Virus record (IMG/VR): IMGVR_UViG_3300046011_005830
Span: 1-48,906 of that record
Source of the DNA: a virus
Length of the DNA stretch: 48,906 nt
Direction: 5' to 3' (one strand)
Of this stretch, positions 9,067 to 43,816 are shown in pieces; the stretch's first letter is position 1, and every line of letters begins with the position of its first letter. The notes beneath the pieces are model-generated. The model made no database searches, had not been told where the DNA came from, and saw nothing but the letters and a program-made list of their open reading frames with translations. Position numbers and translations under genes: made by a program.

Positions 9067-10403
9067 AATATGAAACAGATTTAGAATATAAAAAAAGAGT
9101 GATAGATATAAAGTCAGAATCTTTTTGTGCGGCCAAATGGTATAACGCTACCATTTGGTTAGGTAGCGGCATGACTACAAGTTGTCATCATCCATTACCT
9201 CATAAGGTTGATATCAATGATGTTTTAAAAAATCCCAAAGCTTTACACAACACCATTAAGAAAAAGACAGAAAGACAACAGATGCAACAAGGACAACGTC
9301 CTTCGGGCTGCGAATATTGTTGGAAGATTGAGGATATTGGTAGAGACTCTATAAGTGATAGAGTTTATAAAACAAAAATTTACACAGAAGCGGATTTAGA
9401 CATTGCCTTTCGAACCCCAAGCGATCAAGATGTGGATTTACAAACTTTGGAAATTGCATTTGACAGAACTTGTCAATTTGCATGTAGTTATTGCAATCCT
9501 GCGTTTAGCACCACGTGGGTTAATGATATTAAAAAGAATGGTGCTTATCAAAATTTGATTAGTGACGGTAGAAATCATTTTACTCATACACATGATAGTA
9601 GTCAACTTTATAAACTAGGTGAAGTAAATCCTTATGTAGAAGCATTTTTTAACTGGTGGGATTCAGACTTACACCGTACTCTTAAAGAATTAAGAATAAC
9701 AGGAGGAGAACCATTAATGAGCGGTTCGACTTGGAAGTTATTAGATTGGTTTAAACAAAATCGAGGAAAAAGTCAAACCAGATTGGCTATTAACAGTAAC
9801 TTAGGGCCTGAAACTGACATAGACAGATTGTTGACTGCAGTTGATGGGTTAGAATTTGATCTATACACCAGTAATGAAAGCTTTGGTGTTCACGCTGAAT
9901 ATATTAGGGATGGTTTAAATTGGGATGCATGGTTAAACAATGTTCGTAGATTGTCTTCTAGTAAAAAACTACGAGGTTTGCATGTTATGTGTACTGTGAA
10001 CGCTTTATGTTTAGATAGCTTGCCTAAATTTTTAGATTTGTTAGTAGATTTTAAAAAACAATATGGCAGAGATTTTCCCAATTTTACTTTGAATATTTTA
10101 AGATTTCCTAGCTTCCAAAGTCCATTAGTATTGCCAGATAATTTAAGGACAGATTATAAAAACAACTTGACAACATGGTTAGACAAACATAAAGGCAATA
10201 ATTACTTGCATGGCCATGAACTAGCTCATGTAACACGATTAATAGATTATCTTGACATAGTAAAAACTCCTCACAGTGAAGCGTTTGATTTGAAATCATT
10301 GAGACATGATTTTAAGAAATTTTATCAACAGTATGATATACGCCGCGGAAAAAACTTTGAAGTGGCTTTCCCTAATTTAATGAAATGGTATAACACGTTA
10401 TGA
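9063..10403 (+). CDS. twitch-domain radical SAM protein 3
   Basis: A 446-residue close relative of protein 1 in the array. Auxiliary cysteines are C22, C41, C83 and C86. The radical SAM motif CQFACSYC gives C137, C141 and C144, and ITGGEPLM follows. NPYVEAF and a Trp-rich segment before the GGEP strand are shared with protein 1. The ATG at 9063 overlaps the previous stop as ATGA. An in-frame ATG at 9057 exists, but the 9063 start gives cysteine numbering that matches the paralogue. The gene ends ATGA into the next. The pairing suggests the two enzymes act on related substrates or as a heterodimer, which is inference. Confidence 0.85.
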   Translation: MKYETDLEYKKRVIDIKSESFCAAKWYNATIWLGSGMTTSCHHPLPHKVDINDVLKNPKALHNTIKKKTERQQMQQGQRPSGCEYCWKIEDIGRDSISDRVYKTKIYTEADLDIAFRTPSDQDVDLQTLEIAFDRTCQFACSYCNPAFSTTWVNDIKKNGAYQNLISDGRNHFTHTHDSSQLYKLGEVNPYVEAFFNWWDSDLHRTLKELRITGGEPLMSGSTWKLLDWFKQNRGKSQTRLAINSNLGPETDIDRLLTAVDGLEFDLYTSNESFGVHAEYIRDGLNWDAWLNNVRRLSSSKKLRGLHVMCTVNALCLDSLPKFLDLLVDFKKQYGRDFPNFTLNILRFPSFQSPLVLPDNLRTDYKNNLTTWLDKHKGNNYLHGHELAHVTRLIDYLDIVKTPHSEAFDLKSLRHDFKKFYQQYDIRRGKNFEVAFPNLMKWYNTL

Positions 10404-11740
10404 GCGAAGAAAATAAAATTGTAAGTTTTTATAAAAAAGGATATGACTATAAATCAAAAATTCCATATTTCATTGATTTTGAAAGTTTAACAGAAGAACA
10501 AAAATTTAAACTTGTGGGCAGCGATTATTTTTGTATGTTACCGTGGGTACATATGCATGCCTACCCCGATGGACGGGTCTATCCATGTTGTTTAGGTGAT
10601 TACTGGCACCCAGTTGGCGATCTTAGAAAAAATACAATGAAAGAAGTATGGAACCAAGAAGGGTATCGTCAAGTCCGAAAAAATATGTTAGAAGAAAAAC
10701 CTAGTAAACAATGCACTAAATGTTATGAACAAGAGTCTAACGGATTTTTTAGTATGCGCAATGACTCTAATAGAAATTATGGACATTACATCAATGAAGT
10801 AGATAAGACATCTGCAGATGGTGAGTATGAAACTTTCCAACTTAAGTATTGGGATGTAAGATTCAGTAATCTTTGCAATTTTAGATGCAGAACTTGCGGA
10901 CCAATCTTTAGCAGCAATTGGTATAACGATCATGTAAAATTGTATAAAAAAGCTCCTGACGTGTTAGGTCGCCCAATGGCCAGGATAGAATATACAACAG
11001 GCAATGAAGAAAACATGATGGATCAAATGGAACCCCATATACCTTATTTAGAGCAAATTTATTTTGCTGGTGGTGAACCTTTGATTATGAAGGAGCACTA
11101 CTACTTACTAGAAAGATTAATAGATTTAGGCAAAACAGATGTTCGTATTCATTACAATACTAATTTTAGCGAATTGTCTTTCAAAGATAAACATGTATTC
11201 GAGTATTGGAAACATTTTAAAAATGTCAGTGTTGGGGCAAGTTTGGATGCCAGTGGTGCAAGAGCAGAATTACTACGTAAAGGCACAGACTGGGCACAGA
11301 CTGTACAGAATAGAAAACGTATGATGAAAGAAGTGCCACATGTTGATTTTTATATTGCTGCAACCATTAGTGCAATGAATGTTTTACATGTATTAGATTT
11401 CCATAAAGAGTGGGTTGACTTAGGATATGTCAAACCAAAAGATTTTAATGTAAATCCTCTGTTAGGACCAGACTGGTATAGAGTAGACATATTTCCACAA
11501 TCTATTAAAGACGAAATATTAATACCTGCTTATGAAAATCATTTAGAATGGCTTAGACCACAAGACAATTTAAAAAGAGCAACAACAGGATTTGAAAGTA
11601 TTATTAATTTAATAAAATCTAATAATGATAAATCCAGAGATTGGTCCAAGTTCAAAGTTGAACTTTATGCTTTAGATAAAGCCAGAGGGGAAAATTTTTG
11701 GGAAGTTTTTTCTGAGCTGAAACCGTTTAAATCATTATGA
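10400..11740 (+). CDS. twitch-domain radical SAM protein 4
   Basis: A 446-residue radical SAM protein of the second sub-type in the array. Here the N-terminal motif is CMLPW (C45) with PCC (C63, C64), followed by the pair C105/C108 in QCTKCYEQE. The catalytic motif CNFRCRTC gives C159, C163 and C166, followed by FAGGEPLI. C.LPW...G...PCC is the classical twitch N-terminal pattern. The KA.RG.NF..VF.E block closes the protein. It overlaps both neighbours by 4 bases. The substrate is unknown. Its longer N-terminus (about 40 residues before the first Cys) separates it from the others. Confidence 0.85.
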   Translation: MSEENKIVSFYKKGYDYKSKIPYFIDFESLTEEQKFKLVGSDYFCMLPWVHMHAYPDGRVYPCCLGDYWHPVGDLRKNTMKEVWNQEGYRQVRKNMLEEKPSKQCTKCYEQESNGFFSMRNDSNRNYGHYINEVDKTSADGEYETFQLKYWDVRFSNLCNFRCRTCGPIFSSNWYNDHVKLYKKAPDVLGRPMARIEYTTGNEENMMDQMEPHIPYLEQIYFAGGEPLIMKEHYYLLERLIDLGKTDVRIHYNTNFSELSFKDKHVFEYWKHFKNVSVGASLDASGARAELLRKGTDWAQTVQNRKRMMKEVPHVDFYIAATISAMNVLHVLDFHKEWVDLGYVKPKDFNVNPLLGPDWYRVDIFPQSIKDEILIPAYENHLEWLRPQDNLKRATTGFESIINLIKSNNDKSRDWSKFKVELYALDKARGENFWEVFSELKPFKSL

Positions 11741-12954
11741 AACAATTACCGGCTACTATTTGTTTATTGCCCTGGATTAGTATAGAAACTAGTCCAATGG
11801 GCACAATGCGACCTTGTTGTTTGGCTAGGGAAGAAATTACTGATGAACAAGGTATAAAATTAGATCTTAGAACTTCAACTCTGGAGGATGCATATAAAAG
11901 CAAATATATGCAGCAACTCAGACAGCAGTTTCGGGCAGGAGAAAAACCTTCTACATGTAAATTGTGTTGGAATGAAGAAGCTGCCGGCAGAACTAGTAAA
12001 CGTATTAACAGTCGTATACGATTAAAAGAATTATATGCTAATGTTGATTGGAGCAATGATCGGCCCGATCAATTGTGGTTCTTAGATTTAAAGTTAGGAA
12101 ATATATGTAATCTTAAATGCCGTATATGTGGTAGCTGGTCTAGCAGTAAGTGGGCTGCAGAAGAAATGGATTATTTGCCTAAGGACGCAGATAAGAAAAA
12201 ACACATAGCATACACTTGGTTAAAGAACGGAAAATGGCCTGAAGAAAGTCCTGCATTTTGGGACAATTTGAAAACCTTGTTACCTAACATTAAGTATCTT
12301 GAATTTACTGGCGGTGAGCCATGGCTAATAGAAGAACATTGGGAATTACTAAAATACGCTGCCGAAGCTGGGCACAGTCGTAATATTGATATTCATTATA
12401 ATACTAATGCAACTCAACCACTTGGTGAGAGGTCCATGGTTTGGCAACAATTTGGTCGTGTAGATATAGCGTTCAGCATTGATAATGTAGCAGATAGATT
12501 TGAATATGAACGTTATGGAGCTAAATGGGATCGAGCCAATGAAATTATAGACATGGTGCACTTTACAAAAGACATAGATTGTCCTAACATTACTACTCAA
12601 CTATGTTTTACTATCAATATTCAAAACGTATATTATCTGGATGAACTATTAGAGTGGGCTAGTACTAAACCGTTCGGCAGTGTTCATTTCAATATGTTGC
12701 ATAGTCCTAATCATATGAGCGTTCAGTATATGACGCTTGACGCAAAGGAATTAGTGTTGAATAAGTTAAAAAATACTTTTTGGAAATCTACCAGATATCA
12801 AAAAGAAATTGATAATTTAATTACATTTATTGAAATCGGGTCGGGTAGCGATGGTAAGGAATTTCTAAGACGAATGAAACAGACTGATGAGTATCGCAAT
12901 CAAAATTTTATGGATACTCATCCAGAGATAGCAAAAACAATGGGATATGAATAA
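11737..12954 (+). CDS. twitch-domain radical SAM protein 5
   Basis: A 405-residue radical SAM protein. Its N-terminus is CLLPW (C9) and PCC (C27, C28), then C74/C77 in TCKLCW followed by NEEAAGRTS. The radical SAM motif CNLKCRIC gives C124, C128 and C131, with FTGGEPWL after it. The Arg/Asn-Phe plus HPE ending is the array's shared C-terminal block. The start overlaps the previous stop (ATGA). It belongs with proteins 4 and 6 as the classical twitch sub-type. The role is inferred to be oxidative modification of a peptide or sugar by analogy only. Confidence 0.85.
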   Translation: MKQLPATICLLPWISIETSPMGTMRPCCLAREEITDEQGIKLDLRTSTLEDAYKSKYMQQLRQQFRAGEKPSTCKLCWNEEAAGRTSKRINSRIRLKELYANVDWSNDRPDQLWFLDLKLGNICNLKCRICGSWSSSKWAAEEMDYLPKDADKKKHIAYTWLKNGKWPEESPAFWDNLKTLLPNIKYLEFTGGEPWLIEEHWELLKYAAEAGHSRNIDIHYNTNATQPLGERSMVWQQFGRVDIAFSIDNVADRFEYERYGAKWDRANEIIDMVHFTKDIDCPNITTQLCFTINIQNVYYLDELLEWASTKPFGSVHFNMLHSPNHMSVQYMTLDAKELVLNKLKNTFWKSTRYQKEIDNLITFIEIGSGSDGKEFLRRMKQTDEYRNQNFMDTHPEIAKTMGYE

Positions 12955-12955
12955 T

Positions 12956-13597
12956 ATGAAAAGAAAATTATTAGTAGCTGGCTGTAGTATAACTCATGGA
13001 TTAGAAACAGTTCATCATTGGTTTAGTCAAGAGAACATTCAAAACAGTTATGGAAAATTTATTGCAGATCATCTTCAAGCTGATTATGTAAATATAGCCT
13101 ATCCTGGGGCAAGTAATGAAATGATTTTTCATCGAATCGTCAATGCACTAACTACAAACGATTATACTGATTGTATAATCGGATGGACATCTTTGCATAG
13201 AGAAGCATGGGAAAATAATAACATGACGTGGACATTTAATTTTAATTATGGTGCTTTTACAGATAATAATATCGACGAAATGCCATTTATTAAAAATCAT
13301 AGACTTGCTAAAATTACGTCCAATGTGAAAGAGAAATTAAATGATGTTTATAACTACTATAATACTCTGAGGGTCAAATTATTAACTGACAATTTAGAAA
13401 ATAAATTTAAAAATTATAGGTTACTGATACAAAAATTATGTGTCAGTAAAAATATCGATCTTAAAGAATTTACTGTGACAGAAGAAATTGATAATTTGAC
13501 TAAAATTACTGGGCGATGGTTATTGCAAGGGAGACATCCTAACAAACAAGAGCATCAGCAAATTTCGAAATTTTTAATTTCTAATTTTTATGAATAA
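12956..13597 (+). CDS. SGNH-hydrolase-like protein
   Basis: A 213-residue protein with an SGNH/GDSL-type layout. The first strand ends in GCSITHG (Ser11 as possible nucleophile), a PGASNE segment supplies block III-like Gly/Asn, and a late GRHPN...H provides a block V-like His. It shares an unusual GWT..hRE.W segment with the minus-strand protein at 35162-35815, marking the two as one phage family. The start is taken at 12956, because a GGGA lies about ten bases upstream. The ATG at 12947 is possible. SGNH enzymes add or remove acyl groups on sugars, which would suit the cassette. Activity is unproven. Confidence 0.55.
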   Translation: MKRKLLVAGCSITHGLETVHHWFSQENIQNSYGKFIADHLQADYVNIAYPGASNEMIFHRIVNALTTNDYTDCIIGWTSLHREAWENNNMTWTFNFNYGAFTDNNIDEMPFIKNHRLAKITSNVKEKLNDVYNYYNTLRVKLLTDNLENKFKNYRLLIQKLCVSKNIDLKEFTVTEEIDNLTKITGRWLLQGRHPNKQEHQQISKFLISNFYE

Positions 13598-14891
13598 ACC
13601 CGACACTTTATGTATGGCTCCGTGGACTCATACGTATTTAAGTCCACAAACTGAACGCAGAATGTGCTGTGCCAGCCGTGAACCTGCACAAAACTTTAAA
13701 CAATATATCGATACTAGTAATGGTACAGGAAAATATATACCAATTACTTTGGACCAACACTGGAATGGTGAACATATGCGTTCTGTTCGACAACGGATGA
13801 TGCGGGGAGAAACTCTGCCAGAGTGCGAGGTATGTAACGATAAACTTTTGAATACATCTGTTTACCGTAGTTATTTTAATAGTTTATTCGGGCATAAGTA
13901 TAATGAGGCGATGGAAAAAACACGCCTTGACGGCTACACAGATATGAAACCTGTGAGCTGGGATTACAGATTTAGCAATTTATGTAATTTTAAATGCCGG
14001 ATGTGCGGCGATATGCTCAGTAGTTCATGGGAAAGTGAGCAAAGACAACACAACATGATAAATTGGGCAGATCCAAAAAATTCATGGATGATTCCCGAGA
14101 TAAAACAGCAAATCGAATCATTTCAAACAACTCAAATTGAACAAGAATTCGCTCAGGCAGTAGAAGAACACCGAGTGGAGGAAGTTTATTGGGTGGGCGG
14201 TGAGCCTTTGATGTATGAGCAGCACTGGCGGTATATGCAGCGAATAATTGAATTAGGGGATGGTCCAAATGTTTACGCAAGATATAATACAAATCTCAGC
14301 AGAGTTCGTTATAAAGGTGTTGATCTTTATGATGATATTCTTACTGGGTTACGTGATTGGCAAATATGTGCAAGTTTGGACGGAACAGGATCGATTGGAG
14401 AATATATTAGAACAGGTCTCAATTACGATTCGTGGCTTGAAAACTTCCGTCAAGGAACTAGAATCCAACGTCACAGACGTCAAATGCGAATTGACTTTAC
14501 GCTCACTTTGCCCGGAATGTTCGAAATTACTAATATTCAGCAACTTGGACAACAAGAAAAGGTAGACATTCTAGCCAAAGTAATTTTTAGTTTTAGCCCG
14601 GACATAGTCATGTCTCCCTTGACACTACCCAAAGAACTTTTACATTCTTGGATAGATGAACAATTAAATAATACTATCTTGACAAATACGACTCTGAGGG
14701 ACATGCTTGTCCAGCTAAAAACTAGACCTACTTTTCAAGAACAATGGCCAGATGATTATGAATCGGGATTAAAAAAGGGCAAACGAAGAATATTACAACT
14801 TGAAACTATTAGAACTCAATCTATAACTTTTGAGGAAATTATTAGTCGACGACCTGAAATTTTAAATTGGTGGAATCAAATTGAATGTTGA
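13590..14891 (+). CDS. twitch-domain radical SAM protein 6
   Basis: A 433-residue radical SAM protein, the last of the array and separated from the rest by the SGNH-like gene. N-terminal cysteines are C8 (CMAPW), C26/C27 and the pair C79/C82 (CEVC). The catalytic motif CNFKCRMC gives C132, C136 and C139, with WVGGEPLMY following. The start overlaps the preceding gene by 8 bases and its end overlaps the next by 11. The C-terminus keeps the F..I..RPEI ending related to the shared FPE block. As with the others, no substrate can be read from sequence. Confidence 0.84.
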   Translation: MNKPDTLCMAPWTHTYLSPQTERRMCCASREPAQNFKQYIDTSNGTGKYIPITLDQHWNGEHMRSVRQRMMRGETLPECEVCNDKLLNTSVYRSYFNSLFGHKYNEAMEKTRLDGYTDMKPVSWDYRFSNLCNFKCRMCGDMLSSSWESEQRQHNMINWADPKNSWMIPEIKQQIESFQTTQIEQEFAQAVEEHRVEEVYWVGGEPLMYEQHWRYMQRIIELGDGPNVYARYNTNLSRVRYKGVDLYDDILTGLRDWQICASLDGTGSIGEYIRTGLNYDSWLENFRQGTRIQRHRRQMRIDFTLTLPGMFEITNIQQLGQQEKVDILAKVIFSFSPDIVMSPLTLPKELLHSWIDEQLNNTILTNTTLRDMLVQLKTRPTFQEQWPDDYESGLKKGKRRILQLETIRTQSITFEEIISRRPEILNWWNQIEC

Positions 14892-15972: not shown

Positions 15973-16074
15973 ATGAGCTGGCTAAGAAAACTTTATTTTA
16001 GAATTAAACTAGAAATCAGTTACAGAAAAAAATTAAAGGAACTGAGAAAGCGTGATCCTTTTATTTACAAATGA
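15973..16074 (+). CDS. 33-residue basic microprotein
   Basis: An intact small ORF starts directly after the previous stop (TAAATG), and its TGA overlaps the ATG of the carbamoyltransferase (ATGA). Its 33 residues open with MSWLRKLYFRIKLEISYR and are about one third Lys/Arg, ending in RDPFIYK. It reads as a single amphipathic basic helix. Exact stop-start coupling on both sides is strong evidence that it is translated. It could be a small adaptor, a membrane- or RNA-binding peptide or, more speculatively, a peptide substrate of the neighbouring radical SAM enzymes. It has no Cys and no obvious leader/core boundary. Confidence 0.7.
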   Translation: MSWLRKLYFRIKLEISYRKKLKELRKRDPFIYK

Positions 16075-17552
16075 ATATTTTAGGAATTTCAGCCGGATTT
16101 CATGACGCAGCCATGTCGGTCATTGACTGTCACGGCGAAATTCTTTTTGCAGGTCATAGTGAACGATACAGTAAAATTAAACATGACTCTAATCTAAGTG
16201 ATGGAATAATAAATGATTGTTTAGCCTATTATCCATTTAATACAATAGCCTATTACGAAAATCCAGTGTTAAAACAAACTAGACACTTTTATTCTGGACA
16301 AAAAATCGAATGGGATAAATTAACAGTTCGACAAATTCTAAAAGCACAATTAAAAGATCAAATTGTCCTTCCTAAAAGTATAAAATCTTATTCGCATCAT
16401 CTTAGTCATGCCGCAGCAGGTTTTCAAACCAGTAATTTTGATCATGCCACTGTAGTAGTAATCGATGCTATTGGTGAATGGGACACAGTTAGTATATGGG
16501 CAGCAGAATATGTTAATGATCGTGCTGTATATAAAAAATTATGGTCTAAACGATATCCTCAGAGTATAGGATTATTTTACAGCGCAATGACACAACAAGT
16601 GGGTCTAAAACCTTTAGATGAAGAATACATCTTAATGGGCATGAGTGCTTATGGTAACCGCAATACAGATCGTTTGAATAGTTTTAAAAATTTATTCATA
16701 GAAAATGAATGGGATTTAGATTTCAAACAAAATTTTCACATAGGGCATCAGACTGAGCAATTGAACGATTGGCATGTTTGGGATATTGCAGGAGCTGCTC
16801 AACAACTAATAGAAAATTTGGTTTGCAATGTAATGCGTAGGGCCAGAAATTTTAATTGGTCTGAAAATTTAGTATACATGGGAGGAGTTGCATTAAACTG
16901 TGTTGTTAATTCAAATCTGTTTAATTATTTTAATGATGTTTGGATAATGCCTAATCCCGGGGATGCAGGCAGTAGTTTAGGTGCTGCTGCATTGGCATAT
17001 GGTAAAAAATTAAATTGGAAGAATGCTTTTTTGGGACATAACATACCTGGAGTTTATCCTGTTTCCAATTTATTGGATGAGTTATTAACAAATAAAATTG
17101 CAGGAGTAGCAAATGGTCGAGCTGAATTTGGCCCAAGAGCATTAGGTAATCGCAGTTTGTTAGCAGATCCCAGAGGTACAGATATCAAAATGCAAGTGAA
17201 CAATATTAAACAAAGACAGCAGTTTAGACCTTTTGCGCCTGTTATATTAGAGGAGTTAGCCTCAGATTATTTTGATATGCCAACATCCAACAGTCCTTAT
17301 ATGCAATTTGTAGCAAAATGTAAAATGCCGGATTTATATCCTGCGATAGTACATATCGACGATACTAGCAGAGTGCAAACAGTACCCAAAGACGGGTCCG
17401 GCTTACGAGAACTATTGGAAAAGTGGTTTGTTTTGACAGGGTGTCCTATGTTATTAAATACAAGTCTTAATATTCGGGGTGAACCTATGGTCAATGATAG
17501 GTTAGATGCAGATAGATTCGAAAAATTATATAGTTTAAAAGTTTTATCCTAA
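16071..17552 (+). CDS. carbamoyltransferase (NodU/TobZ family)
   Basis: A 493-residue enzyme of the family that uses carbamoyl phosphate and ATP to put a carbamoyl group on a hydroxyl. The N-terminal Kae1-like domain has the opening GISAGFHDAA, a metal-site HHLSHAA (H109, H110, H113) and a VVIDAIGEWD strand. An ALNCVVNS..F segment and PNPGDAGSSLGAA follow. The C-terminal YrdC-like part has GRAEFGPRALGNRS and LNTSLNIRGEP. It is shorter than the usual 550-620 residues, mostly at the end. The start overlaps the microprotein stop. The acceptor is likely a sugar or other hydroxylated product of the cassette. It is among the most confident calls in this region. Confidence 0.9.
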   Translation: MNILGISAGFHDAAMSVIDCHGEILFAGHSERYSKIKHDSNLSDGIINDCLAYYPFNTIAYYENPVLKQTRHFYSGQKIEWDKLTVRQILKAQLKDQIVLPKSIKSYSHHLSHAAAGFQTSNFDHATVVVIDAIGEWDTVSIWAAEYVNDRAVYKKLWSKRYPQSIGLFYSAMTQQVGLKPLDEEYILMGMSAYGNRNTDRLNSFKNLFIENEWDLDFKQNFHIGHQTEQLNDWHVWDIAGAAQQLIENLVCNVMRRARNFNWSENLVYMGGVALNCVVNSNLFNYFNDVWIMPNPGDAGSSLGAAALAYGKKLNWKNAFLGHNIPGVYPVSNLLDELLTNKIAGVANGRAEFGPRALGNRSLLADPRGTDIKMQVNNIKQRQQFRPFAPVILEELASDYFDMPTSNSPYMQFVAKCKMPDLYPAIVHIDDTSRVQTVPKDGSGLRELLEKWFVLTGCPMLLNTSLNIRGEPMVNDRLDADRFEKLYSLKVLS

Positions 17553-27688: not shown

Positions 27689-28972
27689 TTACGCACCAGC
27701 AAGTTCCTTGGCTTTTTCGTAGATTGCCCACACACCAAAGGGCGGTTCTGCATCTTGATTGCCTTTGATAATGAATACAGTGTCGCAGTAGTCAGGATCT
27801 CCCCAAGAATTATAGGGCATACCATCAGTAAACATAATGAACTTTTTGGGTTCGATATTGTTCTGTTTCATGTATTCCCAGTTAGCCATAAAGTCTGTGC
27901 CACCACCACCTTGAGGTTCATACCCGCTAATATCATCTAGGTTGTCACTGGAGAACGTTTGATGATTGTAAATTTCTGTGTCGAAACTCCACACTTGAAT
28001 TTTATACTCATCGTAAGCTTCCATGATACCTTTGATCTCACTCAAAAATGCTTTGATGTCTGCTTCGCCGATACTGCCCGAAGTGTCAATTGCAATGCAT
28101 ACATCAATCTGCGTACCAGGTTTCATGCCAGGCATGACAGCATCCATGTGCCAGCCTCGACGGTTGGGACGCATCCAGCTAAAGTCATCTTTGACTGTAG
28201 ACTGGATTTGTTGTTGCAGCAGTTCGCGCCAGTTTACTACGGGCTTAGTAAGATCCTTAATCAGTCGCTTAACACCAGATGGCAAGTTACCTGCACCAAC
28301 GGCCTGTGCAGACTGTAGCAATGCCTCACGAATTTCGTCTTTGATCTGACGACGTTCTTCGTCACTCAGCCGAGGCCGGCCTTTGCCTTCTTTGTCGCCA
28401 TCTTGCTCATTCTCACCTTCACTACCTTCGCCTTCAAGATGTTCGTCCAACATCTGTTCCAGCAGATCATTGATATCGATTTTCTCTGCTTTGTCGTAGA
28501 GATCATCATAGACTTCTTCTGCACTCCAACCTTTGTATTTGGGATCATACAAGCAAGGATTAATGCGTTCACCGATTTTTTGTTCAAGCAGATCAGAGTT
28601 TACACAGTAATCTGCAGCACAATTAAACAGCCGGCGGTCACGAAAATCCCCAGTCCGACCAATATGGTCGTAGACATTATGAAGAACTTCGTGTCCAAAC
28701 AAGAATTCAAGCTCACGCGGTTTGAGCTTGTTTACAAATTCAGTATTGTAGTAAAAGTTACGACCGTCTGTGGCCGCGGTGCCCAACCAAGAATCTCCAT
28801 TAACCAACTTCAGCCGAGTAGCCAAGTTACCGAAAAACGGCGCTTTAAGAAGAAGACCAATACGGGCAGTGACTAGTTTTTCACGCACTGATGCATCCAA
28901 TCGCGGATCCGTATTTTCAGTGAGACTGCCTGCCAGTTTAGACTTGGATTTTTCGCTGCTAGTAGTTGCCAT
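27689..28972 (-). CDS. putative metallopeptidase with VWA domain
   Basis: A 427-residue protein of the DUF2201-type metallopeptidase plus VWA-like family. GHEVLHNVYDH contains the zinc motif HExxH (H94, E95, H98), and D296-T-S-G-S300 plus a later FTDG form the MIDAS metal site of a von Willebrand A domain. A Glu/Asp/Gly-rich linker separates them. The start is the ATG at 28972. AAGGAG lies upstream and the promoter's -10 lies just beyond. A longer reading frame from 29026 would start inside the promoter. It partners the MoxR ATPase upstream, as MoxR-VWA pairs usually do. GC content is visibly higher than in the neighbours. Confidence 0.88.
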   Translation of the reverse strand: MATTSSEKSKSKLAGSLTENTDPRLDASVREKLVTARIGLLLKAPFFGNLATRLKLVNGDSWLGTAATDGRNFYYNTEFVNKLKPRELEFLFGHEVLHNVYDHIGRTGDFRDRRLFNCAADYCVNSDLLEQKIGERINPCLYDPKYKGWSAEEVYDDLYDKAEKIDINDLLEQMLDEHLEGEGSEGENEQDGDKEGKGRPRLSDEERRQIKDEIREALLQSAQAVGAGNLPSGVKRLIKDLTKPVVNWRELLQQQIQSTVKDDFSWMRPNRRGWHMDAVMPGMKPGTQIDVCIAIDTSGSIGEADIKAFLSEIKGIMEAYDEYKIQVWSFDTEIYNHQTFSSDNLDDISGYEPQGGGGTDFMANWEYMKQNNIEPKKFIMFTDGMPYNSWGDPDYCDTVFIIKGNQDAEPPFGVWAIYEKAKELAGA

Positions 28973-28992
28973 ATCACGCTCCTTACACAATA

Positions 28993-29014
28993 CCAATATT
29001 ATAAGAAATATTGG
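28993..29014. promoter_or_regulatory. operator-like palindrome over the -10 region, copy 1
   Basis: CCAATATT (28993-29000) and AATATTGG (29007-29014) form a perfect 8-bp inverted repeat with a 6-base spacer. It covers the -10 hexamer and part of the spacer of the promoter for the VWA gene. Such placement suits a repressor that blocks polymerase. No cognate regulator is identified. Confidence 0.6.
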
Positions 29015-29026
29015 AATATTTGTCAA
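28998..29026 (-). promoter_or_regulatory. consensus sigma70 promoter of the VWA gene
   Basis: On the minus strand TTGACA (29021-29026) and TATAAT (28998-29003) are separated by exactly 17 bases, a perfect sigma70 consensus. Transcription would begin near 28991, about 19 bases before the start codon at 28972, and end at the TTCG terminator. It probably uses the unmodified host polymerase, as an early or middle promoter would. Confidence 0.9.
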
Positions 29027-29479
29027 TCAAACTTTATCTGGTAATACAATATCACCACGGAATAAATTTACTAATACATTATAGATATATCTATTTTTGC
29101 TAATACCTACGTTATAAAATTGGAGATCATAATAATAATCTTCAGCTTTAGACAAAGTAAAGCGAACTCGATTGTATTCTACAACCACTTTCCAGTTTCT
29201 ATTGTGTTCATCTTTATAAGTAAATTTTGAAATTTCTTTCCATTTGAATTTGGGAATTTCTTGTGTAACTCTATGCCACAAACTTTTTGCATCAGCAACA
29301 TTAATGTCACGTTCCTTGGCCGAACTAATACGTTCTAATCTTCCGCCGATGCTGATAAGGTCTTTACCGGATAGACCAAGAAGTGTGGTGTAACTAACCA
29401 ACTGTCTAATTTGCTCTTGTTTTTCCGAAGAGAATCTCTTAAAAGTCAAGTCCTCTTCTAATTCTTGATCTAGTTCCAT
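29027..29479 (-). CDS. conserved phage hypothetical protein
   Basis: A 150-residue protein with a helical, acidic N-terminus and a beta-rich C-terminus (KVVVEYNRVRFTLS..EDYYYDL). It ends with its TGA directly against the -35 box of the VWA promoter. It starts one base after the preceding gene. No function is recognised. Confidence 0.58.
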   Translation of the reverse strand: MELDQELEEDLTFKRFSSEKQEQIRQLVSYTTLLGLSGKDLISIGGRLERISSAKERDINVADAKSLWHRVTQEIPKFKWKEISKFTYKDEHNRNWKVVVEYNRVRFTLSKAEDYYYDLQFYNVGISKNRYIYNVLVNLFRGDIVLPDKV

Positions 29480-29480
29480 T

Positions 29481-29798
29481 TTATAACCATTTCAATTTGA
29501 ATAAGGTAAATTCTTCGTCACCAGCAAAGTAGATTGCAGTTTCTTTTCTGCCTTCTGACACAAAGTGCCAAGCCCATTTACGAACAAAAGCATCATCTTT
29601 ATCTGCCAGACAAATTAACACTTCACGTTCGTAACTACGACCAAAAGTGTCCCAACACCAATCTCTTAGTTCAACAAATTTTAAATAGCGTTCTCTAATA
29701 GGCCCTGTAATTAGGACACGAAATTTAAAGTGTTTGTGTCCTGTAAACCTGATGTCTAACTTTTGATAAACAAGAGAGGCATTCATAGTAAAGCCCAT
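29481..29798 (-). CDS. conserved phage hypothetical protein
   Basis: A 105-residue protein with strands RFTGHKHFKFRVLI and a closing EEFTLFKLKW, similar in its ending to the 78-residue protein at 23676-23912. The ATG at 29798 or 29786 may be used. Both sit within a long hairpin (29768-29821) that also holds the possible ribosome site. Trp/Cys-rich middle (RDWCWD). Unknown function. Confidence 0.55.
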   Translation of the reverse strand: MGFTMNASLVYQKLDIRFTGHKHFKFRVLITGPIRERYLKFVELRDWCWDTFGRSYEREVLICLADKDDAFVRKWAWHFVSEGRKETAIYFAGDEEFTLFKLKWL

Positions 29799-29821
29799 TT
29801 AATGAATGCCTCTCTTTGTTT
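29768..29821 (-). promoter_or_regulatory. 19-bp hairpin spanning MoxR stop and next start
   Basis: The arm 29768-29786 pairs with 29802-29821 along about 19 bp with a single bulged T and a 15-base loop. On the minus strand it begins at the MoxR stop codon. The left arm holds the AGAGAGG ribosome-site-like run, the loop holds one ATG (29798) and the right arm starts with the other (29786), followed by CTTGTTTATC. It could attenuate transcription after MoxR or hide the ribosome site of the next gene. Confidence 0.6.
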
Positions 29822-30929
29822 ACTTCTGGCTAGCCGCCACGATGTACTTACCAAATCGCTTGTGGAACTCATCAAAGTTCTTAAGCTTGCCGGGCACAAA
29901 CGGAAGGTTGTAAGTAGTCAGCGCGACCCTTGCACCCATAACAGTCAACTCAGTAGTAAAATTGTCCATCATGAACTTGAAGAAGTTGTCTGCCATTTCA
30001 TGCCATTCCGCACTGATCTTGCCTGCTTCTTTCTTAGCAGCATCCTGCAGTTCGTAGCACATAGCAATGGTCAGACTGTACATAGCACTGATCTCTTTGA
30101 CCTTGAGTTCCTTGACCTTACCAGCAAGGATCTCGGAGGGTTTAGGCAACTGTCCAGCAACCTTACGGTGTGCCATAAACTTAACAGCAACACCTTCGCC
30201 CACAGCACCCGCAACCATATCGGTCAGATCCTCGGTGCTGATATCGTCGTCCTTAAGCAGTTCGCTAACAAAAGTCCACGAACGCGGCGTAGCAAACGAA
30301 CGGCTAGAACTACGCGGATCAAAGTCGTAGAGATCCTGTTTGGCGAAACCCACATAACCAACCACGTCCTTGTGGATCTTGTTGGTCACTGCCCACGTCT
30401 CCCAGCTGGCATGATCTACCCGCATTTCGATATGCACGAAACGATTTGCCAACGGAGCAGGCATACGGTAAGTAACGCCTTTGTCGCTTTCACGGTTGCC
30501 TGCAGCAATTACCACAACGTTGTCAGGCAAAACATACTTGCCAATACGACGATTCAACACCAACTGATATGCTGCAGCCTGGATGCTGGGAGCAGCACTG
30601 TTCATTTCGTCCATGAACAGAACCACATAAGGATATTGGCTGGCGAATTCTTCGTCGGGCAGATCGATAGGCGGCGCCCAATCCATCTTGCCAGCATCTT
30701 TGTTATAGAAAGGGATACCACGCAGGTCAGTAGGTTCCATCTGCGCAAGACGCAGATCGATAAATGCGGCACCCAGTTCATTGGCGACACCAGCAACCAC
30801 TTCACTCTTACCAATTCCCGGAGGGCCCCACAAAAACACGGGACGTTTCTGCTTGAAACAAGCAAGGATGATACGGCGGGCCGCAATAGCGGTAACAGTA
30901 CGATGCTCAGTAACGGATTCTTTGGTCAT
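29820..30929 (-). CDS. MoxR-family AAA+ ATPase
   Basis: A 369-residue AAA+ ATPase of the MoxR type. The Walker A GPPGIGKS is at 35-42, Walker B VVLFMDEMN has D107/E108, AAGNRES is sensor 1, and the MPAPLANRFVHIEM box holds the arginine finger region. MoxR proteins act with VWA-domain partners as chaperones or complex-maturation factors. The VWA protein lies 850 bases downstream, separated by two small genes. AGGAG stands seven bases before the ATG. GC content is near 48 percent in sampled lines, against 25-35 percent in flanking genes. Confidence 0.93.
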   Translation of the reverse strand: MTKESVTEHRTVTAIAARRIILACFKQKRPVFLWGPPGIGKSEVVAGVANELGAAFIDLRLAQMEPTDLRGIPFYNKDAGKMDWAPPIDLPDEEFASQYPYVVLFMDEMNSAAPSIQAAAYQLVLNRRIGKYVLPDNVVVIAAGNRESDKGVTYRMPAPLANRFVHIEMRVDHASWETWAVTNKIHKDVVGYVGFAKQDLYDFDPRSSSRSFATPRSWTFVSELLKDDDISTEDLTDMVAGAVGEGVAVKFMAHRKVAGQLPKPSEILAGKVKELKVKEISAMYSLTIAMCYELQDAAKKEAGKISAEWHEMADNFFKFMMDNFTTELTVMGARVALTTYNLPFVPGKLKNFDEFHKRFGKYIVAASQK

Positions 30930-30960
30930 TTAGACACTCCTGTTTAACGTTGAAAAAACA

Positions 30961-30989
30961 ATTATAGTTGGAAAAAGAATATTTGTCTG
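30961..30989 (-). promoter_or_regulatory. sigma70-type promoter of the MoxR gene
   Basis: On the minus strand CAGACA (30984-30989) and a perfect TATAAT (30961-30966) have 17-base spacing. The spacer holds the same AATATTC stretch as the other promoters of this group. The transcript would start about 25 bases before the ATG, leaving room for the AGGAG site. Confidence 0.75.
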
Positions 30990-30992
30990 TTG

Positions 30993-31211
30993 TTATTCTG
31001 CAACAAGACTGGGACTAAAAGTGAATTTTGCAAAAGAAATATTTTGATTCATGGATTTCGCAGCATTTTCAGCCAGTTCGCGACTGGCAAATTCTGCCAC
31101 CGTTTGACCAAATCTTGCATGATCTGATCCAAGAGTTTCGAATCTAACTACGGTCCAAGCAGGGCTACGATCATCGTTACCACAATCAAATCTAACTTCA
31201 AACTTGGTCAT
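30993..31211 (-). CDS. small conserved phage protein
   Basis: A 72-residue protein starting at MTKFEVRF. It has a beta-alpha fold-like pattern: FEVRFDCG, then TVVRFETLG, then a helix FASRELAENAAKSMNQ, as in small dRBD- or SHOCT-like phage proteins. An upstream in-frame ATG at 31277 is rejected, because it lies before the promoter at 31245-31273. GGAG stands seven bases before 31211. Unknown function. Confidence 0.62.
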   Translation of the reverse strand: MTKFEVRFDCGNDDRSPAWTVVRFETLGSDHARFGQTVAEFASRELAENAAKSMNQNISFAKFTFSPSLVAE

Positions 31212-31239
31212 AATTTTCTCCGTGTTTGTATTTACTATA

Positions 31240-31261
31240 CCAATATTATAAGAAATATTGG
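31240..31261. promoter_or_regulatory. operator-like palindrome over the -10 region, copy 2
   Basis: CCAATATT (31240-31247) and AATATTGG (31254-31261) with a 6-base spacer, in the same position relative to the promoter as copy 1. Two identical copies suggest shared control of the 72-residue gene and the VWA gene. Confidence 0.6.
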
Positions 31262-31273
31262 AATATTTGTCAA
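31245..31273 (-). promoter_or_regulatory. consensus sigma70 promoter of the 72-residue gene
   Basis: Minus-strand TTGACA (31268-31273), 17-base spacer and TATAAT (31245-31250). The expected transcript start is near 31238, which fixes the gene start at 31211 rather than 31277. Confidence 0.9.
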
Positions 31274-31549
31274 TCAAACAACTTCTAGCATGTTAGCAGG
31301 AACACGCCAACGCAATTGCCCTGCGTTAACTGTTACGTACTTGACTGCAACCTTTTCCACGGTTCCAGTGATAGTCTGCTGACGTTTAGTAGAATAGAAC
31401 TTGACACGATCCCCTAGGGTAATACTGCGTTTGATCTCTTTAGACAGTTGGCTGCGCCTATATTTTACAGCCATAATCACACTGTCTAATTGATCATTAG
31501 TCAGATCACCAAACATGATGGTTGAGTTGATGTCTTGAATCGTAGCCAT
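31274..31549 (-). CDS. small phage protein with SH3-like segment
   Basis: A 91-residue protein. The N-terminal helix region (FGDLTNDQLDSVIMAVKYRR) is followed by a beta-barrel-like segment ITLGDRVKFYSTKRQQTITGTV and VPANML, which resembles KOW/SH3-like nucleic-acid-binding domains of phage proteins. GGAG stands before the ATG, and a promoter lies 30 bases further up. The stop TGA abuts the -35 box of the next promoter. Role unknown, possibly nucleic acid binding. Confidence 0.6.
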   Translation of the reverse strand: MATIQDINSTIMFGDLTNDQLDSVIMAVKYRRSQLSKEIKRSITLGDRVKFYSTKRQQTITGTVEKVAVKYVTVNAGQLRWRVPANMLEVV

Positions 31550-31578: not shown

Positions 31579-31607
31579 ATTTTACCAAATATTGGAATAT
31601 TTGTCAA
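31579..31607 (-). promoter_or_regulatory. sigma70-type promoter of the 91-residue gene
   Basis: Minus-strand TTGACA (31602-31607), 17-base spacer and TAAAAT (31579-31584). The spacer again contains AATATTCCAATATT. The -35 box overlaps the TGA of the upstream gene. Only one CCAATATT/TTGG half of the palindrome is kept, so its control may be weaker. Confidence 0.82.
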
Positions 31608-33916: not shown

Positions 33917-34151
33917 CTTCGATTCCAAAATAATTTTTTATTAGTTCACCAGCTCTTTTCATTGCCTTACCGCCATTGGGGCCGAAGTCATCCTGTGCAG
34001 TAATATCAGTGTTAAGAACCATAACACATTCTTCAATCAAATATTGACCTAAAGTTTCGATAAAACCAGCCATCCATTCTTCTGCTGGTACGTTAATGTC
34101 TGCATGATCCTGCCATGCTCTAACTGCTACTTCTTGTATACGATGATTCAT
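33900..34151 (-). CDS. small conserved phage protein
   Basis: An 83-residue protein opening with MNHRIQEVAVRAW, with a central helix FIETLGQYLIEECVMVL and a Gly/Lys-rich turn near the end. It resembles the following gene's product and similar short phage proteins. ATGA coupling with the exonuclease upstream. Function unknown. Confidence 0.55.
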   Translation of the reverse strand: MNHRIQEVAVRAWQDHADINVPAEEWMAGFIETLGQYLIEECVMVLNTDITAQDDFGPNGGKAMKRAGELIKNYFGIEDETHN

Positions 34152-35137
34152 TTGGGATATCCTGCATTAAGAATTTCTCCAATGGTAGAACTATTTTCAC
34201 TTAATTTGTTAAGCTCATACTTACCACAAAACTTAAGAAATTGTGCTCCTACCATCGGGCGATTTTTAGCTACACAATTTTCTTGAATAGTTTGATCAAT
34301 AATAGATTTAATATTATCTGGTTGAGCATTTAGATCAACCAACTGCACATTTCTCACATAATCATCTAGCACACGATGTTCATTACCGTTATGATCAGTC
34401 CATCTCTGTAGCATTAGGTTATTCCAATGGAAACCTTTACGACTCATATCTTCGTATGCTTCTTGTAAACCCACTTTATTTTTACTACCTTTAGTACGAA
34501 CACCTGGATATGCACTGAAAATATTGTCAGTGGGATCACCACGCATACATTTTTCAAATAGAATCCATTTAGGATTAGGAATACATTTTGCTTCTTTTGT
34601 TTTTTTGTCTATAACAGGGCGGCCTTTTTTATCAAAAATACCGTTAATAGTGTGCAATTCATCTGCCACACCATTGTATTGATTTACATTTTCTGCCAAC
34701 AGTTGATGAAAGTCAGTGTCACTGCTTACAATAGTATGATGATCATTGGGGTGATTGCGGATAAATCCTGCAATAAGATCGTCTGCTTCTAACTGCTCAT
34801 GCCTTAGTACAGTGCAATTTGTTTTTTCTGTCAGAAATGTTTTAAGATCGTCAAATGCTTCCCAAAACAGCCTGTCTTCTTCTGCTTCCCTTTCTGTTAG
34901 GGCAGCTCTAGCTGCAGCACGATTGGCTTTATATGGCGGATAAAAATCCTTGCGCCAACTACGACCTTCTAAACAAAATATAACATGATCGGCATGTTGA
35001 TCCCGCCAAGCCTTATTAACACTGGCAAGAGTTACATGAATGGCAAACCCCAACTTATCCCATGTATCGCTTTGACGATGGGCACTGTGGCGGGCTCGAA
35101 AGAATGTGTTGGCTGTGTCTACAATAAGATATCGCAT
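34148..35137 (-). CDS. T4 RNase H-like 5'-3' exonuclease
   Basis: A 329-residue FEN1/T4 RNase H-family nuclease that removes RNA primers and flaps during phage replication. The metal-binding acidic residues lie in VDTANTFF (N-terminus), LEADDLIAGF and SSDTDFHQLL. RGDPTDNI supplies the helix-hairpin-helix part. The length is close to T4 RNase H (305). The ATG at 35137 lacks an SD and lies close to the predicted promoter, so the mRNA may be nearly leaderless. ATGA coupling into the downstream small genes. Confidence 0.92.
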   Translation of the reverse strand: MRYLIVDTANTFFRARHSAHRQSDTWDKLGFAIHVTLASVNKAWRDQHADHVIFCLEGRSWRKDFYPPYKANRAAARAALTEREAEEDRLFWEAFDDLKTFLTEKTNCTVLRHEQLEADDLIAGFIRNHPNDHHTIVSSDTDFHQLLAENVNQYNGVADELHTINGIFDKKGRPVIDKKTKEAKCIPNPKWILFEKCMRGDPTDNIFSAYPGVRTKGSKNKVGLQEAYEDMSRKGFHWNNLMLQRWTDHNGNEHRVLDDYVRNVQLVDLNAQPDNIKSIIDQTIQENCVAKNRPMVGAQFLKFCGKYELNKLSENSSTIGEILNAGYPK

Positions 35138-35146
35138 AGTGCCATA

Positions 35147-35176
35147 ATAATAGCATATTATTTAAATATTTGTCAA
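35147..35176 (-). promoter_or_regulatory. sigma70-like promoter of the exonuclease gene
   Basis: Minus-strand TTGACA (35171-35176) with TATTAT at 18-base spacing (35147-35152). The AATATTT stretch after the -35 box is shared with the MoxR/VWA group. The implied transcript start is only a few bases from the ATG. Confidence 0.6.
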
Positions 35177-36436: not shown

Positions 36437-37312
36437 TTATTTACCCCACCCATTGCCCCATAGATCTACATGCAGTCTGGGACTATAATTATACCCTCTG
36501 CTCAAAGCCCAATCAGCAACACGAACGCGATTACGTTCATATGGCGTAACTACACCACCTTGAGGCATGACGTAGACTCTGCCCGAAAAACCTGCTTGTC
36601 TGTATTCGTTTACTGCCTGTTCAACTTCTTCAAAATGTTGTTCTGTTTCTACTACAAACTTTAGATATACAGTACCAATGTTTTCGTAAGCTGCAACTGT
36701 GTCTGGTCTAATAGCATCCTCCCACCGTTCTCCACTTGCACTTATTTTAGGGCTTACACTAAAAGTAATTTCTCCCCCATTGCCATAAGGAAACCTAGAC
36801 TGATTCCATTCTTGTAAATATTCGATAAAGTCGTCTTGTAGTGCTTGTGTACCATTAGTTTCGAAAGTGATATTTCGCAAATCCTCCATCTTTTCATCGC
36901 TGAGCAGATCTCGATAAGCACGTTGCCACCCTAGCAACGGTTCTCCACCTGTGATAACAAGATGAACATCATTGCCATTGTCTTGCAACCAACCTTTGTT
37001 TGGAGTTAGTGCAAGTAGTCGATTGACTACTTCATGCACAGACAGTGCGGGACTTAGATTTTTAAATGCTGGATGCCAACTTGCATAGCTGTCACAACCT
37101 GTATTGACCAATGGTAAACTGTTAAAATCCTTATACAAATGAACATTTTTTGCAATGTCATCTGCTTCAGTACTTCGAACACCTGGTGCACATCCAAATC
37201 CTGCGCATGTAAAGTTACAACCAAAGGTTCTTAGAAAGACACTGGGCACGCCAACAAAACGTCCTTCACCTTGTGCACTATAGAAAATTTCACTAATTTT
37301 AATTTTAGACAT
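36437..37312 (-). CDS. queE: 7-carboxy-7-deazaguanine synthase QueE-like (radical SAM)
   Basis: A 291-residue radical SAM enzyme that rearranges 6-carboxytetrahydropterin to 7-carboxy-7-deazaguanine. Opening SEIFYSAQGEG..VG.PSVFLR and VITGGEPLLG are QueE signatures. The cysteines are unusual: C32 and C36 (CNFTC), then C41 and a GCDS at C73, instead of a compact CxxxCxxC. The 30-odd residues between C41 and C73 look like an insertion in the cluster loop. It works with FolE and QueD nearby. QueC is not in the window. The family call is firm. The cluster ligands are uncertain. Confidence 0.88.
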   Translation of the reverse strand: MSKIKISEIFYSAQGEGRFVGVPSVFLRTFGCNFTCAGFGCAPGVRSTEADDIAKNVHLYKDFNSLPLVNTGCDSYASWHPAFKNLSPALSVHEVVNRLLALTPNKGWLQDNGNDVHLVITGGEPLLGWQRAYRDLLSDEKMEDLRNITFETNGTQALQDDFIEYLQEWNQSRFPYGNGGEITFSVSPKISASGERWEDAIRPDTVAAYENIGTVYLKFVVETEQHFEEVEQAVNEYRQAGFSGRVYVMPQGGVVTPYERNRVRVADWALSRGYNYSPRLHVDLWGNGWGK

Positions 37313-39485: not shown

Positions 39486-39965
39486 TTAATCGACAAATTC
39501 TCTATCTTCCCTATGGCCAACTCTCATGGCCATATTACTGTCGGTTTCCCGTACTTCAACCTTGCAGCACCAAATTCGTTCTGCTTCAGTTTTTCCGTAC
39601 ATGGGTAGAAAGATAGTGTTTATGTACTCATAAAGAAAATCTGCAAGACCTTCACAGCCGGTTTTCTCTACGACAGTAATTTTTGCTAAACCAAGTTCTC
39701 CAAGACGGAGTAGTTCAGCCTTTTTGGGATCATCTTCTGCTACAAGCAAAGTATGATCGAACCATTCTTCTAGTTTTTCTTTTAAAGGTTTTAGTCCACC
39801 AAAATCCATACACCAATTACGTGCATCTAGTGTATCACATTCAAATTCAAAATGAAATGATAGTGCATAACCGTGAATTAGATTGCAATGACTGTCTGCC
39901 CGCCATTGACGATATGCAACTGGACCGATTTGTCTGTATGTTTTAGTACTAATATATTTTGCCAT
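39486..39965 (-). CDS. queD: QueD-like 6-carboxytetrahydropterin synthase (divergent zinc site)
   Basis: A 159-residue T-fold protein. The start is the ATG at 39965 with AAGAG upstream, rather than 40079. Conserved QueD points are CNLIHGY (catalytic Cys and one zinc His), MDFGGLK, FDHTLL (the DH of the triad) and a late VEVRE. However, the usual HGH is HGY, and the first zinc His (AAH in E. coli QueD) is not visible. Either the metal site is rebuilt with other His residues (SFHFE follows), or the enzyme has a changed reaction. It follows FolE in the pathway and QueE uses its product. Confidence 0.75.
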   Translation of the reverse strand: MAKYISTKTYRQIGPVAYRQWRADSHCNLIHGYALSFHFEFECDTLDARNWCMDFGGLKPLKEKLEEWFDHTLLVAEDDPKKAELLRLGELGLAKITVVEKTGCEGLADFLYEYINTIFLPMYGKTEAERIWCCKVEVRETDSNMAMRVGHREDREFVD

Positions 39966-40047
39966 CTCTTGCCTTTTGTAAGTAAGTTTGATGACTTGCA
40001 GAATATTTTGAGTGGGTTGAAAGTCTGAGTCCACTGTAAAATAATAT

Positions 40048-40545
40048 TTATCGCCACCAGGATTCATAAGGAAAAACAATCCAATCTAATGGTTGTTTAG
40101 TAACTTCCCTACCTACGTAATCCATTTTTAATTTACAACTGCTAGCAGTATTGTCGACGACCACGGCGAATCTGACATTATTATTCCAAACGTTTACCCA
40201 CCGTTCATTGTAAGGATGACAGCCGGATGGCCAATCATCTACAAGCCAATTAATGGTTGCCCCTGAGTCATTGATATCATCTACTACTAAAATATTTTTA
40301 CCATTGAATGCATCTTCTGCCATCCAAAGATTGCTTTCACAGCCATTTTCCTCATCACGCAAACTAATTTTAATTGTTTGCATAGGAACATCTAAATAGT
40401 GACTGATCATCGTTGCTGCAGTCAACCCACCACGAGTGATTCCTACAATGTAGTCAGGTCGCCAATCGGATAATGTAATTTGTCTAACAATATCTGCTAC
40501 TAAATTTCTATGTTCTTGGCCGGTAATATTAATATAATTCATCAA
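40048..40545 (-). CDS. phosphoribosyltransferase
   Basis: A 165-residue type I phosphoribosyltransferase. The PRPP loop ILVVDDINDSGATI (VVDD..DSG.T) is clear, as are IVGITRGG and the flexible region SLRDEENG. Phage versions are usually annotated as nucleobase or xanthine/hypoxanthine transferases. The substrate cannot be chosen here. In a block with GuaC and FolE, a purine substrate is plausible. Confidence 0.85.
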   Translation of the reverse strand: MMNYINITGQEHRNLVADIVRQITLSDWRPDYIVGITRGGLTAATMISHYLDVPMQTIKISLRDEENGCESNLWMAEDAFNGKNILVVDDINDSGATINWLVDDWPSGCHPYNERWVNVWNNNVRFAVVVDNTASSCKLKMDYVGREVTKQPLDWIVFPYESWWR

Positions 40546-42534: not shown

Positions 42535-43146
42535 ATGTTTTTAGAAAACAAATACGCCAAAGTTTATTTTAAAATAATTGATAACGCTAAAAATCGAGGG
42601 AGCATTAAAGAAAGATTTGATATGAATCAAACTCATCATATTATTCCTCGCTGTATGGGCGGAACGAATGATTTCGACAATCTTGTTGTTTTGACATATA
42701 AGGAACATAGGCTCTGCCATCGTCTTCTTATTAAGATGACTTCTGGAGAGTATAAGCATAAGATGATGTATGCTTATCTTCTCTTTGACAAATCATATGA
42801 TACCTCCGGTATGCCATCTCCCCAAATGTATTGCACCGACGAGTCTTACCGAAAAATGGTAGATACTCGAAAAAGACAAGGCTCGTATAAACGAGGCAAG
42901 GAAAATATTTTTTCTTCTCCAGGTATTGTAGAACAAGTTCGAAAACGGATGATTGAACAAAATCCTATGAAATCTCCGGAACAGAAAGAGCGTATGCGAC
43001 AGCAGAACAATAACCCGTTTTGTAAGCCAGTTATTGTAGAGGGTATTATTTTTCCTTCTATAGGTGCTGCTGCAAGACACTTTAATACTACTCCTTTTAA
43101 ACTTAAAAAATATTTTAGCGTGGAGAGAAATCCTGCTGGAGTTTGA
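42535..43146 (+). CDS. HNH homing endonuclease
   Basis: A 203-residue HNH endonuclease of the free-standing homing type. QTHHIIPRCMGGTNDFDNLVVLTYKEHRLCH is the HNH core (His-His and late His metal ligands). The C-terminal PVIVEG.IFPSIGAAARHF.TTP is an IENR1/NUMOD-like DNA-binding repeat. Start is set at 42535 with AAGGA eight bases upstream. The ATG at 42514 lacks one. It is the only plus-strand gene in 27 kb of minus-strand genes, and it overlaps the folE end by 32 bases, so it looks like an inserted mobile element. Confidence 0.9.
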   Translation: MFLENKYAKVYFKIIDNAKNRGSIKERFDMNQTHHIIPRCMGGTNDFDNLVVLTYKEHRLCHRLLIKMTSGEYKHKMMYAYLLFDKSYDTSGMPSPQMYCTDESYRKMVDTRKRQGSYKRGKENIFSSPGIVEQVRKRMIEQNPMKSPEQKERMRQQNNNPFCKPVIVEGIIFPSIGAAARHFNTTPFKLKKYFSVERNPAGV

Positions 43147-43816
43147 TATTATCAAAAAACTCTTTTTTAGTTCCAATATCGTCCTTAAATGCTCCCCGCA
43201 AAACTGTAGTCTGAGTCAGACTCGAGTGCGCCATTATCCCCCGATTTTCACAGCAGCCATGTTGAGCCTGTATATAAACCCCTACATCTTTGGCTCCCGT
43301 TGCACGTTCGATCTCCCTAGCAATGTCATTACAAAGTTCCTCCTGGAGAGTACCACGTCTTGCACACCACTGAGCAATCCTAGTATATTTTGAAAGACCG
43401 ATAAGCTTTTGGGCAGCAATAATACCAATGTAAGCAACACCAGTAACGGGTTGATGATGATGGCTACAAACACTACGAAGCTCACTGCGAACAACAAGCA
43501 TACCTTCGTAACGTTCCTCCGAATCATTTGGGAATGATGTGCAATCTGGACTGGGGTCATATCTACCTGCCATTATTTCATTAAAATACATTTTTGCAAG
43601 ACGCTTCGCAGTGCCTTTACTGTTAGGATCTGTTTCTCTGTCAATTAAAAGACTATCGAGCACTTTTTCAAATGCTTTAGCAGCTTCTACAATAAGAATA
43701 TCTTTCATGTCTTCATTGACATATTCTGAAATGTTATCGCCAGCCCAAAATCTTTTGCCGTCTTGTTTCATTTGTTTGCGAATTATCTGTGATAAGGGAA
43801 CGCCTTCGTCTTCCAT
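43115..43816 (-). CDS. folE: GTP cyclohydrolase I FolE
   Basis: A 233-residue type I GTP cyclohydrolase, producing dihydroneopterin triphosphate, the first step of both folate and deazaguanine synthesis. The zinc Cys in SVCSHHHQPVTG, with the His pair, and QAQHGCCENRG are clear. GRYDPSPD sits in the N-terminal part. The last eight residues beyond the expected EF..NI ending are shared with the 3' end of the HNH gene on the other strand. It is the pathway's entry enzyme in this window. Confidence 0.95.
   Translation of the reverse strand: MEDEGVPLSQIIRKQMKQDGKRFWAGDNISEYVNEDMKDILIVEAAKAFEKVLDSLLIDRETDPNSKGTAKRLAKMYFNEIMAGRYDPSPDCTSFPNDSEERYEGMLVVRSELRSVCSHHHQPVTGVAYIGIIAAQKLIGLSKYTRIAQWCARRGTLQEELCNDIAREIERATGAKDVGVYIQAQHGCCENRGIMAHSSLTQTTVLRGAFKDDIGTKKEFFDNIKLQQDFSPR

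Follow-up and report, generated by a model that had tools for sequence, protein, structure and literature searches.

Identical promoter units beside a phage moxR gene as a very probable part of a dispersed set of co-directional sigma-70-type early promoters in a jumbo-phage family

The stretch of DNA analysed here (the window) is the IMG/VR virus record IMGVR_UViG_3300046011_005830, 48,906 bases long with a GC content of 36%. Two promoter units of 43 nt lie on its minus strand, unit 1 at 28990–29032 and unit 2 at 31237–31279, and a pairwise comparison within the window revealed 0/43 differences between them. Read on the minus strand, both have the sequence GTTTGA-TTGACA-AATATTCCAATATTTCT-TATAAT-ATTGGTAT, in which a promoter scan identified a -35 element matching at 6/6 positions, a spacer of 17 nt and a -10 element matching at 6/6 (unit 1: TTGACA at 29026–29021 and TATAAT at 29003–28998; unit 2: 31273–31268 and 31250–31245). 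The 8-nt arms of a dyad, CCAATATT-N6-AATATTGG, span the -10 element in both units (28993–29014 and 31240–31261). A dyad search found a mismatch-free dyad at these two units alone in the window, and every other match contained at least three mismatches. The first-pass annotation of this DNA had described identical 43-base units, each with a perfect TTGACA-17-TATAAT promoter and an 8-bp palindrome over the -10 region, and this description was borne out.

Unit 1 stands before the gene (27689–28972, minus strand, ATG at 28972) for a 427-aa protein with a DUF2201 N-terminal metallopeptidase-like part and a VWA-like part (PF13203, E=1.7e-41; PF09967, E=3.1e-19; PHROG 1314). Downstream of unit 2 is a 72-aa open reading frame (ORF; 30993–31211, minus strand) with the ribosome-binding site CACGGAG ahead of its start; Pfam and PHROG searches gave no match for it, and the matching promoter in loci L150, L006 and L246 likewise precedes a 72-aa ORF. 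This ORF is located directly upstream of moxR (29820–30929, minus strand), which encodes a 369-aa MoxR-type AAA ATPase (PF00004, E=9.8e-10; PF07726; PHROG 1297, E=7.2e-98). The two genes near MoxR/VWA that the units had been said to control can accordingly be named as the DUF2201/VWA gene itself for unit 1 and the 72-aa ORF adjoining moxR for unit 2.

The promoter scan identified three related minus-strand promoters in the window, described earlier as relatives that keep the -35 element. This holds for the promoter at 31579–31607 (TTGACA-17-TAAAAT, without the -10 dyad), located 29 nt ahead of a 91-aa ORF (31274–31549, minus strand) with no confident Pfam or PHROG family, and for the one at 35147–35176 (TTGACA-18-TATTAT). 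It does not hold for the weaker site at 30961–30989, upstream of moxR, where AATATT is present and the -10 is perfect but the -35 is degenerate (CAGACA, 4/6 matches); a TTGACN-17-TATAAT promoter occupies the corresponding place upstream of moxR in many relatives. The 35147–35176 promoter precedes a 5'-3' exonuclease gene (34148–35137, minus strand; PF02739, E=2.5e-20; PHROG 107), and similar sites were observed in loci L152, L154 and L158. Since it lies only ~10 nt from the ATG, the exonuclease mRNA would be nearly leaderless.

An exact search of IMG/VR with 34 nt of the unit found three further contigs (G001, G002 and G003). G003, 6.1 kb long, matches the window at 97.7% identity across its length, and apart from the promoter units blastn detected no similarity of the window to G001, G002 or locus L089. 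The 79-kb G002 is a member of the window's phage family, because its DNA ligase shares 69% identity with the ligase of the 338-kb phage G004, and the MoxR of G004 is in turn 81% identical to that of the window. G002 contains ~16 promoters of this type; all are co-directional with the majority of its genes, and most have 29–31 nt from the -10 to the start codon and an ACGGAG-like ribosome-binding site. IMG/VR was also scanned with the -10/dyad 22-mer alone, CCAWTATTTCNTATAATAWTGG, and 17 distinct copies were examined. TTGACA was found exactly 12 nt upstream of the 22-mer in 17/17 copies, and an ORF start 6–35 nt past the -10, mostly at 30 nt, also in 17/17. The promoter core had 0 matches among 84,980 bacterial and archaeal genomes. 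Within the scanned collections the sequence is therefore always located at promoters and is phage-specific; spread at non-promoter sites, which the first-pass annotation had named as the finding that would speak against it, was not seen in any of the 17 copies, and the further copies it proposed to search for were found in IMG/VR contigs and in none of the 84,980 genomes. The regulon part of its proposal, namely phage genes under one shared promoter sequence, is supported, as the unit recurs before many co-directional genes in close relatives, with none found off promoters.

These results also bear on whether the units are a chance repeat or AT-rich noise. The window is AT-rich, and a dyad with three mismatches is expected about once per window; nevertheless, 43-nt exact identity, exact consensus spacing and the repeated finding of the unit in independent contigs, in every case as a promoter, make the probability of chance negligible, and the 22-mer scan refutes it.

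A query with MoxR matched at least 599 IMG/VR stretches, and promoters were counted in 79 loci (913 kb) from the best 80 of these at least 599 matches. Relatives with a MoxR 69–88% identical to that of the window share the promoter architecture and have no palindrome. On the moxR strand the 79 loci contain 173 distinct perfect TTGACn-17-TATAAT sites and on the opposite strand 0, compared with 2 for both strands together in one order-1 Markov replicate. All but four of the 173 lie outside same-strand ORFs of at least 100 aa (169 outside, 4 inside), and 141 are followed by a ribosome-binding-site-like stretch and a start codon at a median of 29 nt from the -10. Five near-complete relatives of 315–343 kb carry 22, 35, 35, 37 and 17 sites on one strand, but with one extra site on the opposite strand in the genome with 37. 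A recurring form in the wider family, TTGACC-AATAAWTCCCAATTTGC-TATAAT, was found exactly in 89 IMG/VR stretches, is often followed by ATACACATAG and contains the extended -10 motif TGn, whereas the window lineage has TTGACA and no TGn. Across loci L151–L229, A at the sixth base of the -35 occurs 11 times with TG and 37 times without it, and other bases 67 times with and 50 times without (Fisher p=7e-5, for sites that are not phylogenetically independent). TTGACA thus tends to go without TG and TTGACC/T/G with it, as if overall promoter strength stayed bounded. A further lineage, represented by loci L169–L192, uses a spacer version of its own, TTTTGG-TTGACT-TTTTGGTAAAATGACTG-TATAAT, in which the TTTTGG flank recurs in the spacer.

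The units very probably belong to a set of strong, co-directional sigma-70-type early promoters that is dispersed over the genome of a jumbo phage. Their promoter-like sequence, copy number, orientation and place upstream of ORFs are observed, as is their absence from the scanned bacterial genomes and from non-promoter positions of the scanned contigs. The near-consensus -35 and -10 elements with 16–18 nt spacing, in many co-directional copies upstream of ORFs, are what characterizes a set read by host sigma-70. On entry of the phage DNA, host RNA polymerase (RNAP) with the housekeeping sigma factor would bind the consensus -35 and -10 elements, initiation would occur at the A seven nt past TATAAT (predicted at ~28991 for unit 1 and ~31238 for unit 2), and short transcription units would be read directly after infection, from a leader of ~24 nt ending in a strong, ACGGAG-like ribosome-binding site. 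Searches with Sigma70_r2 (PF04542) gave nothing above cut-off in 9 phage records and one weak sub-threshold stretch, with diverged T4 gp55-type factors being beyond this profile's reach. This negative result fits reliance on host sigma, which also agrees with a review according to which most jumbo phages lack their own RNAPs and rely on that of the host (PMC13282480). Sigma homologues are often encoded by such jumbo phages (PMC13282480); none was seen here by PF04542. An early timing is likely from comparison with T4-like phages, and the term 'early' rests on this analogy, as many of the genes behind these promoters are small and lack a known function.

By function, such a set is of a known kind, the phage early promoter set. 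T4-type phages such as RB69, RB49 and Aeh1 have dozens of near-consensus early promoters before early or novel ORFs, with 57 predicted in RB69 (PMC1524935). The two sets have in common the correct orientation, conservation extending past the -35 and -10 elements, a phage-specific consensus and, very probably, reading by the host RNAP. However, T4 early promoters have GTTTAC as their -35 and an A-rich UP-like stretch, whereas the window family has TTGACA or TTGACC with the conserved spacer AATATTCCAATATTT or AATAAWTCCCAATTTGC; the window family shows no strong element upstream of the -35, where positions carry little information. T4 middle promoters resemble the window units in that a conserved element precedes the -10, but in them a MotA box (consensus TGCTTtA, 11–13 nt ahead of the -10; PMC1524935) replaces the -35, while the window units have a perfect sigma-70 -35 at 17 nt. 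The suggestion of an early/middle switch therefore retains its early half, likely by analogy, and loses its middle, MotA-like half, given the perfect -35 at 17 nt and no MotA box. Cultured jumbo phages that have a moxR homologue, including PA5oct (Arenbergviridae), carry related genes for the ATPase, the exonuclease and a QueE-like protein in an order similar to that of the window, and 10 of the 11 TTGACN18TATAAT sites of PA5oct are on one strand, though without a shared spacer like that of the window lineage. A literature search on promoters of this jumbo-phage family or of PA5oct did not find the motif, a weak negative with subscription papers mostly outside its coverage.

The palindrome over the -10 invites a different interpretation, in which the CCAATATT-N6-AATATTGG dyad is an operator and a phage repressor dimer bound over the -10 shuts the dyad-bearing promoters in concert. 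The arms are perfect at both window units, the site at 18404 of G002 is changed compensatorily in both arms (CCATTATT/AATAATGG), and the dyad-bearing promoters form a subclass apart from the non-dyad promoters of the same genome. Nevertheless, perfect symmetry is seen in fewer than half of the distinct copies (8 of 17), and the symmetry is broken in the L150 counterparts of both window promoters and in the L246 counterpart of unit 2, and sites with one altered arm outnumber the single G002 site altered in both. Among 28 lineage sites, complementary arm pairs numbered 162 compared with 155 when right arms were permuted (p=0.07), and the five variable pairs gave p=0.13. A scan over all centres found at least 7 of 8 dyad pairs in 0 of the 173 wider-family sites. 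Moreover, the left arm is a local version of a family-wide spacer motif, and the -10 itself supplies three right-arm positions. On these grounds a conserved symmetric operator was rejected, an operator function, which could at most be confined to this small lineage, is very unlikely, and the shared repressor envisaged in the first-pass annotation is unsupported, the symmetry being incomplete, lost in orthologous promoters and absent from the wider family, with no significant covariation between the arms. The palindrome is probably a lineage-specific spacer/discriminator trait that spreads and decays with promoter copies, and its reading as an operator was a tempting over-interpretation that is corrected here. 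Mycobacteriophage L5 carries stoperators, which are repressor-controlled, asymmetric and located largely away from promoters. Like the window units, they are short sites repeated in a single orientation across a phage genome, but window-type copies are all promoters, and dyad symmetry is not maintained among them.

Conservation of the spacer AATATTCCAATATTT and of the initial leader exceeds what host sigma-70 needs, so that a phage factor could read them too. Such a factor, either an activator or an RNAP modification as by T4 Alt, would read the spacer and discriminator together with host sigma-70 and favour phage promoters over those of the host. Consistent with this, conservation runs beyond the -35 and -10 into spacer, discriminator and leader, and spacers vary by lineage, though those from one locus resemble each other somewhat more than those from different loci (0.43 vs 0.37). 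Spacer-centred inverted repeats of the types AATATT-CC-AATATT and AATT-CCC-AATT, with arms of at least 5, are slightly enriched (11.5% of wider-family spacers compared with 4–5% expected, a weak difference among sites that are not independent). However, the match to the sigma-70 consensus already makes an activator unnecessary, the small enrichment comes from non-independent sites, likeness within a genome is explicable by recent copying, and no candidate factor was found; participation of such a factor is unlikely. It is quite improbable that the spacer/discriminator in this jumbo-phage family is a fast-evolving, lineage-specific element, homogenized among the promoters of each genome and recognized by a transcription factor that the phage encodes; if it were, the early regulon of each lineage would be its own, although the underlying sigma-70 promoter is universal.

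That the two units are identical may also result from recent copying or gene conversion between promoter cassettes, as in a mobile or homogenized promoter, and the identity would then carry no regulatory meaning of its own. This explanation concerns origin and not function, and is compatible with the sigma-70 early promoter reading. The window units differ at 0/43 positions from each other but at 6 and 4 from their L150 counterparts, and the corresponding L150 pair differs at 8, which suggests recent copying or conversion in the window lineage; that the promoter unit is the sole blastn-detectable likeness of the window to G001, G002 and L089 points the same way. On the other hand, the L150 pair is no closer, the comparison is limited to two loci, and selection on a short AT-rich motif could yield an equal outcome, so that such an origin has slightly less than an even chance.

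As sigma-70-type early promoters, the units allow an early-promoter set to be defined by sequence in a jumbo-phage family that is mostly uncultured and, to judge from the at least 599 IMG/VR stretches that match MoxR, large. Early genes in metagenomic contigs, often encoding small proteins of unknown function that may aid host takeover, could be picked by their promoter.

Several minor observations were made beside these promoters. A broad scan combining the -35, AATATT and -10 gave matches of which those listed were mostly contigs with one match each; among the matches listed, L043 (IMGVR_UViG_3300028833_000132) contains, within 5 kb, 10 TTGAC-17-TATAAT promoters that are co-directional and among which a ATAGTCACAAAGA-like start region recurs; it may be an independent array of early promoters. 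The core of the T4 late promoter, TATAAATA, occurs 10 times in G002 and once in the window, which is rarer than the 6.7 expected, and T4-type late promoters were rejected for the window. QueE-like, QueD-like and GTP cyclohydrolase genes (window positions 36437–37312, 39486–40079 and 43115–43816) likely constitute a route of 7-deazaguanine synthesis, possibly serving DNA modification. On the plus strand, a Nol-like carbamoyltransferase (16071–17552) is encoded beside several radical SAM proteins (6549–14891), and these genes are possibly involved in base or glycan modification.
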